21,827 bases of DNA from a virus, in IMG/VR virus record IMGVR_UViG_3300012271_000067, positions 1-21,827 of that record, one strand, 5' to 3'. The notes under the pieces are model-generated. The model saw nothing but the letters and a program-made list of their open reading frames with translations, was not told where the DNA came from and did no database searches. Both the position numbers and the translations under genes were made by a program. Within the stretch, counting starts at the first letter, position 1, and the number at the start of each line of letters is the position of its first letter. This document shows, in pieces, positions 1,168 through 3,348 of the stretch.

Positions 1168-1214
1168 AAAAAAAACCTATTCAGGCTTGGAGTCAGAGTC
1201 CGCACCCGAATAGG
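1168..1214 (-). terminator. Intrinsic terminator with a large loop
   Basis: On the minus strand a perfect 7-bp stem (CCTATTC at 1214-1208, GAATAGG at 1182-1176) is followed directly by eight T (1175-1168). The 25-nt loop is long for a plain terminator and contains CTCTGAC (1198-1192), which is exactly complementary to the loop of the hairpin at 1232-1248. It closes the small transcription unit that begins near 1305. Confidence 0.8.
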
Positions 1215-1250
1215 CTTTGTAATATTTTTATTAGCTCTCTGACAGCTATT

Positions 1251-1277
1251 TTAATTAAAGGTAAAAGTGCGCATCAT
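1251..1277 (-). CDS. Possible leader peptide, 8 aa
   Basis: Two adjacent ATG codons (1277, 1274) open a frame reading MMRTFTFN and then TAA. It lies about 28 nt after the predicted transcription start, preceded by the purine-rich stretch AGATAAGAAAGTGG. The stop lies only 2 nt before the TAGCT hairpin, the spacing expected if ribosome position influences RNA folding. An ORF this short can arise by chance and there is no independent support for translation. Confidence 0.25.
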   Translation of the reverse strand: MMRTFTFN

Positions 1278-1309
1278 AACCACTTTCTTATCTTCCCCTC
1301 AATCAGAAT

Positions 1310-1339
1310 CAAAGATACCAATTAATTTTTATACTGCAA
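1310..1339 (-). promoter_or_regulatory. Bacteroidota-type promoter of the small RNA unit
   Basis: On the minus strand there is TTG at 1339-1337, a 19-nt spacer, and TATCTTTG at 1317-1310, a full match to TTG / TAnnTTTG with the same spacing as the two other promoters in the window. Its spacer differs from the other two, so it may respond differently. Predicted start of transcription is near 1305. Confidence 0.75.
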
Positions 1340-2849: not shown

Positions 2850-3348
2850 CTGTTAACTGCTTTTCAAGTTCAGAAGTAACATTATACTTAGCTTTCACTT
2901 TGTTAATATCTCCGCCATTAGCAATGAACTTTTTAGCCTCTTTTATTTGTGTGTCATTCATTTTCATGCCGTGAGTGTTTGTACTATCCGCATCTTTAGT
3001 ATCGTCAATTAAAAACAATCCATTCAAGGCGTACTTTCTAGCATAACTTGATGAACTCCCAAAGCTTTGAGAAATATCCATTCCTTTGCGATTTGGGTCA
3101 ATTCCTGCCTGTGCTTTTACGACTACTGTTTCTTCACCTACTGTAATCCTTGCCGTAGCTTCTACAAATAGAATACTGTTTAACTCTTTGATCTCATCCG
3201 AAACAGTCAATAAAGCATTATGATTATTTAGTAATGGCTTGACGGCTTCTAGAATATCTTCACATGATCTGTATTTGTACTTGCCAAATGCATTGTTTTG
3301 ATTCTTTGGTGCTTTTAATTCTGCTTGTATTTTGATTAATTCTTTCAT
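2842..3348 (-). CDS. erf: ERF-family single-strand DNA annealing protein
   Basis: A 168-residue protein of the ERF (essential recombination function) superfamily. The family signatures are YKYRSCEDIL at 25-34 and GSSSSYARKYAL at 97-108, followed by LFLIDDTKDADS (111-122). ERF proteins bind single-stranded DNA and anneal complementary strands; here the partner nuclease is the PD-(D/E)XK protein at 1481-2359. The C-terminal part (130-168) is a charged helical tail. The frame extends eight codons upstream to a double TTG, but those codons overlap the -7 box of the promoter at 3370-3399, so the ATG at 3348 is the start. It is the first gene of the operon, with an A-rich leader of about 17-20 nt. 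Confidence 0.92.
   Translation of the reverse strand: MKELIKIQAELKAPKNQNNAFGKYKYRSCEDILEAVKPLLNNHNALLTVSDEIKELNSILFVEATARITVGEETVVVKAQAGIDPNRKGMDISQSFGSSSSYARKYALNGLFLIDDTKDADSTNTHGMKMNDTQIKEAKKFIANGGDINKVKAKYNVTSELEKQLTDD

Follow-up and report, generated by a model that had tools for sequence, protein, structure and literature searches.

The locus and its transcription signals

The window, that is, the whole stretch of DNA analysed here, is a 21.8-kb fragment (21,827 nt) of a tailed-phage genome held as an IMG/VR virus record, and nearly all of its likely genes lie on the minus strand. The portal and capsid genes are at the right and lysis genes near 4-5 kb, followed by genes for an ERF annealing protein and a DUF3799 exonuclease; no tRNA or tmRNA was found in the window. 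Past the exonuclease, the minus strand presents in order the terminator of the ERF/exonuclease (recombination) operon (1429-1407), a promoter (1340-1310), a 138-nt stretch (1305-1168), and a terminator with a run of eight T (1175-1168) that ends the unit. A sequence-only reading of this DNA had proposed a candidate phage small RNA at this site, directly past the terminator of the recombination operon and enclosed by a full Bacteroidota promoter and an intrinsic terminator of its own. The operon terminator is confirmed at 1429-1407, where it separates the operon from the RNA. Both strands of the surrounding region (1400-1499) have strong structure, with z about -5 to -6, and transcription may therefore terminate there in both directions.

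The promoter was likewise found, on the minus strand, as TTTG (1340-1337), 19 nt and TATCTTTG (1317-1310). It is one of only two matches in the window to the full consensus TTTG-N19-21-TAnnTTTG, against a shuffle mean of 0.7, and the other match (3400-3370) heads the ERF operon. Taken alone, the promoter at 1340-1310 is weakly beyond chance; its placement is apt. A second candidate -7 box, TACCTTTA (1263-1256, minus strand), one base off TAnnTTTG, lies 12 nt before the first loop described below, and the box of Cellulophaga phage phi10:1 carries the same G-to-A deviation. Since TACCTTTA sits where the box of the relatives sits, the core RNA may be only about 84 nt long (about 1251-1168), with 1305-1251 as an optional 5' extension. 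The absence of a normal gene from the 138 nt, also part of the earlier proposal, is borne out: the sole internal open reading frame encodes MMRTFTFN (8 codons, 1277-1251), and a mechanically called 47-codon frame with a GTG start (1205-1062) overlaps the terminator and is not credible.

Past the T run, no open reading frame of note was found between 1167 and 761, and no replication or HNH gene lies directly downstream of the RNA. These approximately 400 nt hold a credible gene on neither strand; a gene may have decayed here, to judge from frame remnants in adjacent frames, VANRKPVVTGPTK and ENNRLVDAIKKKLRLDCEGSMGR among them. An opposing box, TACCTTTG, is found on the plus strand at 837-844, followed by a T run near 910, and the stretch is no more structured than its shuffles. 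The next likely gene starts at 568, about 600 nt downstream of the RNA, and has its own near-perfect promoter at 625-596. On the minus strand, 3400-3348 and 625-566 are alike in promoter and transcript start (TTG...TAnATTTG, then TTGAAATCAAAC); because these are common to both units, co-regulation is probable, and the ERF operon and the 568 gene probably have their true starts at the ATG codons at 3348 and 568, respectively.

Fold of the RNA and the loop-loop contact

The predicted fold of the 138-nt RNA consists of three hairpins, with a folding energy for 1305-1168 of -42.8 kcal/mol, against -26.8 +/- 3.5 in shuffles (z -4.57). The first hairpin (1305-1252) belongs to the 5' extension, contains the 8-codon frame and is missing in the relatives. 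The middle one, hairpin 1 (1248-1232), has the stem UAGCU/AGCUA and the loop GUCAGAG (loop 1, 1243-1237), and an AU-rich single-stranded linker (1231-1219), like those of phage P12002L and of element B of phage snork6-1, connects it to the third. The intrinsic terminator, which had been placed at 1214-1168, takes the form of this third hairpin (1218-1172), with the apical stem GGA/UCC and the loop CUCUGAC (loop 2, 1198-1192), together with the eight T; a simple terminator scanner misses the hairpin on account of its long loop, and the fold shows it clearly. A leader-peptide mode of attenuation, with MMRTFTFN as the peptide, was rejected on two grounds: its frame lies in the 5' extension, which the relatives lack, and no antiterminator was found that would pair with the terminator stem.

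Loop 1 and the apical loop of the terminator are complementary at 7/7 positions, and the match ends exactly at the two stems. The loops are 38 nt apart, and the T run comes after the second hairpin. This loop-loop contact, which the sequence-only reading missed, is the defining feature of the element. A 7-base loop-loop match is reached by 4 of 3000 dinucleotide shuffles of the same RNA, and across the whole window, with both strands scanned, GUCAGAG/CUCUGAC is the only one between two compact loops; one other 7-base match joins long AT-rich loops within a gene. The rarity of the match bears on the plainest account of the locus, an ordinary terminator that backs up the operon terminator, accompanied by a chance promoter and a coincidental loop match. 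Intrinsic terminators are common, and chance alone would supply a window with about 0.7 promoters of full consensus; the family evidence given below, with the same geometry and compensatory change in relatives, already contradicts this account, and we regard it as the least credible of those weighed here. Complementary loops are nevertheless no evidence by themselves, since a paired-loop scan made with no other constraints was not enriched (24 matches versus 18 in shuffles), and geometry, promoter box and covariation are needed in addition.

Relatives of the RNA in other phages

No homologue of the window locus was found among viral contigs by way of the exonuclease, tail or 191-aa proteins or by DNA, nor in genome contigs by way of exonuclease and capsid homologues; the capsid relatives either stop short of the window locus or differ there. 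At the gathering score, Rfam 15, riboswitches and small RNAs included, matched neither the window nor the family members, and what appeared at a lowered threshold was chance; the five matches to the exact loop pattern in viral contigs are all unrelated. Among the terminators of 80 contigs with a related ERF, one further family with compact, GC-containing matching loops was found (contigs L079/L081), and its element adjoins the 5' side of a replication-protein gene. Four more elements (L105, L106, L113 and L115), each in the gap before the following gene, were reached by replication-protein homology and position and not by a query for complementary loops. The loops of these five contigs differ (GUCGCAG in L079; GUAGCGC, GUAACGG, GUCGCAC and GUAGGAU in the others), and each is accompanied by its perfect reverse complement.

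The covariation alignment was confined to the four homologous contigs with common flanks, L079, L105, L106 and L113. Within it, the predicted kissing helix has standard pairs in 60/60 cells, and both sides have changed in 4/7 kissing pairs and in 2/4 pairs of the apical stem. The covariation scores 0.467, where shuffles score 0.177 and none of 500 is as high; when the partner is slid by 1-3 columns as a control, the score falls to near 0. A MAFFT alignment of all 13 elements was poor in its second half. A compensated change of the loops also distinguishes the phages morran9-1 and snork6-1 (GUGAGAAG/CUUCUCAC versus GUGAGACG/CGUCUCAC). Because related phages have changed both loops together, the predicted contact is under selection.

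The isolated phages with a member are morran9-1, snork6-1, phi19:1, phi10:1, Nekkels_1, elemoA, 11b and P12002L, whose hosts are Flavobacterium, Cellulophaga and Polaribacter; the architecture is also present in metagenomic phage contigs. Croceibacter phage P2559S, Bacteroides phage B124-14, phi38:1 (first 49 kb), Leeuwenhoekiella phage Arctus_1 and part of Riemerella phage CRP19 gave no match. The common architecture is a TAnnTTTG box, 9-14 nt, a hairpin, 38-49 nt, and a terminator with a complementary loop. Leaving the window aside, the parsed members place the box 9-14 nt ahead of loop 1 and separate the loops by 39-49 nt, for an RNA of about 81-103 nt; Nekkels_1 is the exception, with 84 nt between its loops and an RNA of 129 nt. 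The window and P12002L have the outer terminator stem CCTATTC/GAATAGG in common, and their linkers are similar (TATTACAAAGCCTATTC in the window, TTTTACAAATTCCTATTC in P12002L).

Over 1.27 Mb, a descriptor with the limits of the family matched 30 places, 12 of them distinct; each belongs to the family, the window is included, and six passes over the same DNA after shuffling gave 1, 0, 0, 0, 1 and 0 matches. Since the descriptor was tuned on known members, and A at the last box position was allowed after phi10:1 and the window had been seen, these counts are supportive and not independent; the independent evidence is the covariation together with the members reached by gene position. Nekkels_1, with its long spacer, fails the descriptor, and the snork6-1 element B, taken alone, has an unremarkable fold energy (z -1.1).

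Several members have peculiarities of their own. Nekkels_1 (L128, 43431-43572) has its promoter in common with phi19:1 and a longer, branched terminator; a second complementary pair, GTCTAAC/GTTAGAC, is also present, and this RNA may have two loop contacts. In phi19:1 (L127, 10356-10455), a possible antiterminator could arise by pairing of the 5' end, CTTCATAGTT, with the terminator's 3' arm, AACTATGAGG; most other members lack this pairing. In morran9-1, the kissing-loop RNA is overlapped by an annotated 'hypothetical protein', gp042 (L124, 14157-14300), probably called as a gene in error.

Gene context of the relatives

Most relatives lie directly 5' of replication genes or of an HNH endonuclease gene, a context that is frequent and not universal, and a downstream gene of this kind was not taken as defining for the family. 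The downstream genes are of the replication/DnaD-like, primosomal or HNH kind: the neighbour is a replication-protein gene in L079, L106, L113 and L115, a gene for a primosomal protein in P12002L and one for an HNH endonuclease at snork6-1 element B, and elsewhere small-protein genes stand between the element and replication genes. Of the 14 parsed elements, 7 have an ATG 0-6 nt past the end of the T run. In six phages, two genes have element B and an HNH endonuclease gene between them; in filifjonk9-1, 10 nt separate the same two genes. The kissing-loop element and the NUMOD/HNH endonuclease gene (L125, 4838-5459; equivalents in L130, L131, L133, L134 and L137), absent together from filifjonk9-1 (L132), thus appear to move as one cassette.

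This context bears on whether the RNA acts in cis or in trans. As a stand-alone trans-acting small RNA, it would pair with or titrate host or phage targets, and the kissing contact would stabilise the RNA and display the AU-rich linker. The RNA has its own promoter and terminator, no gene follows directly in the window, where the next operon relies on the promoter at 625-596, and element A of the Lillamyvirus phages leaves 43-44 nt between its end and the following ATG. Half of the relatives, however, abut the next start codon, which trans action does not need; moreover, no candidate target was identified, and the loops diverge freely, with no conserved seed seen in them. We consider such a role possible, yet doubtful. 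Of the earlier proposal of a phage small RNA, what is well supported is a small, structured and probably independently transcribed RNA whose distant relatives show compensatory changes; a trans-acting antisense role does not follow from it. Because the relatives are placed as leaders directly before replication or endonuclease genes, a cis-acting gate is at least as likely as a trans-acting small RNA.

The proximity to replication genes could also be read in two other ways. The first is copy-number or superinfection sensing by intermolecular kissing, either in a dimer or with a nascent transcript, in which the released RNA would feed back on transcription of the replication genes, much as antisense control works in plasmids. 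It would suit the loops of 7-8 nt and their rapid paired divergence, which would avoid cross-talk, as well as the snork6-1 genome, which has two elements with different loops. The same pairing is possible inside one molecule, though, and should win kinetically there; an antisense transcript is neither needed nor seen, the proposal is purely inferential, and we judge it improbable. The second is an element that works at the level of DNA, as an origin, a site of primosome assembly or a recombination hairpin, since hairpins form in single-stranded DNA too. Against it, each parsed element is organised as a transcript would be, with a TAnnTTTG-type box a short way upstream and, on that same strand, a T run at the 3' side only; we hold this explanation to be very unlikely.

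Discussion

The relatives keep the architecture, the fixed spacing and, through compensatory changes, the predicted loop-loop pairing, so that at the level of sequence comparison structure and family are strongly supported for them; the assignment of the window copy draws on geometry, loop match and sequence resemblance. We infer the function of the family, the gate included. A TAnnTTTG-type promoter would produce an RNA of about 80-140 nt, which would start with or soon reach a short hairpin and continue through an AU-rich linker to an intrinsic terminator; a compact kissing-loop fold would result once the terminator's apical loop pairs with the 7-8-nt loop that caps the first hairpin. In a gate, the kissing contact would form as the terminator loop emerges and fix the efficiency of the terminator: most transcripts would end there and be released as a stable small RNA, and the remainder, a regulated share, would read into the adjoining replication or accessory gene. 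The conserved contact would set this balance between stopping and running on, or else protect the released RNA. What suggests a gate is the position of the terminator, which has a promoter of its own before it and a start codon immediately after it.

We put the probability that the window RNA is a member of this so far unlisted family of kissing-loop phage RNAs, with the gate as its function, at about 0.6. Against membership, the covariation comes from L079, L105, L106 and L113, no relative having been found for the window locus; against a gate in the window, the RNA has an extra 5' hairpin and no gene directly past its T run, and fits less well than the relatives do. The approximately 400 nt with no open reading frame of note and the separate promoter of the 568 gene make the released RNA the likelier product there. 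Probably, then, the window holds an orphan or relocated copy whose main product is the released RNA, and a trans role of that RNA is possible.

To our knowledge, structured RNAs of Bacteroidota phages have hardly been described, and we know of no kissing-loop leader, put-type RNA or plasmid antisense system with the arrangement found here. Antisense loop pairing operates in plasmids, in ColE1 RNAI/RNAII and in the antisense attenuators of the pT181 type. The family resembles these in its fully complementary 7-nt loops, in a predicted control of transcription beside replication genes and in a specificity set by loop sequence; in the family, in contrast, the pairing is within one RNA and there is no antisense gene. 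Loop-loop pairing in a phage RNA is also known from the phi29 packaging RNA, which forms an intermolecular ring of the packaging motor, whereas the window RNA has no packaging context. In the cobalamin riboswitch, the L5-L13 kissing loop controls the leader, and kissing helices typically comprise 5-7 Watson-Crick pairs (PMC10907184). There too, an upstream hairpin is tied through a loop-loop helix to the hairpin that does the regulating in the leader (PMC10907184), but the family RNA has no ligand-binding core, only a hairpin of 4-8 bp, and the partner loop is in an intrinsic terminator. The put RNA of phage HK022 is a structured leader that acts on polymerase and, like the family RNA, lies right after an early promoter, ahead of early genes (PMC9378689); put, however, suppresses termination and is itself no terminator, a distinction made by description and not by fold. 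The FopS small RNAs of Bacteroides (RF04319; PMC11697453) are likewise short Bacteroidota RNAs that end in an intrinsic terminator; a FopS-like match at 1397-1460 was rejected, being at chance level and not at the window RNA. A literature search found no description of this RNA family in open-access papers, a weak result given that subscription papers lay mostly outside it. With no listed family matching, the family is apparently new.

It is a compact family (about 80-140 nt) with a tertiary contact supported by covariation, a predicted promoter and a predicted end, and its members in isolated, growable phages make it directly testable. If the gate is true, its design, an upstream hairpin that holds the terminator by its loop, would be unusually simple for an RNA gate. 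Bacteroidota genetics would also gain useful parts in the orthogonal loop pairs. A further extension, in which the kissing loop sets its own terminator in cis and the released RNA acts on the nascent leaders of sister genomes, seems to us a long shot. If it were true, the family would constitute a copy-sensing or superinfection-specific switch for replication genes, its loops would diversify in the manner of plasmid incompatibility determinants, and the class would be widespread.
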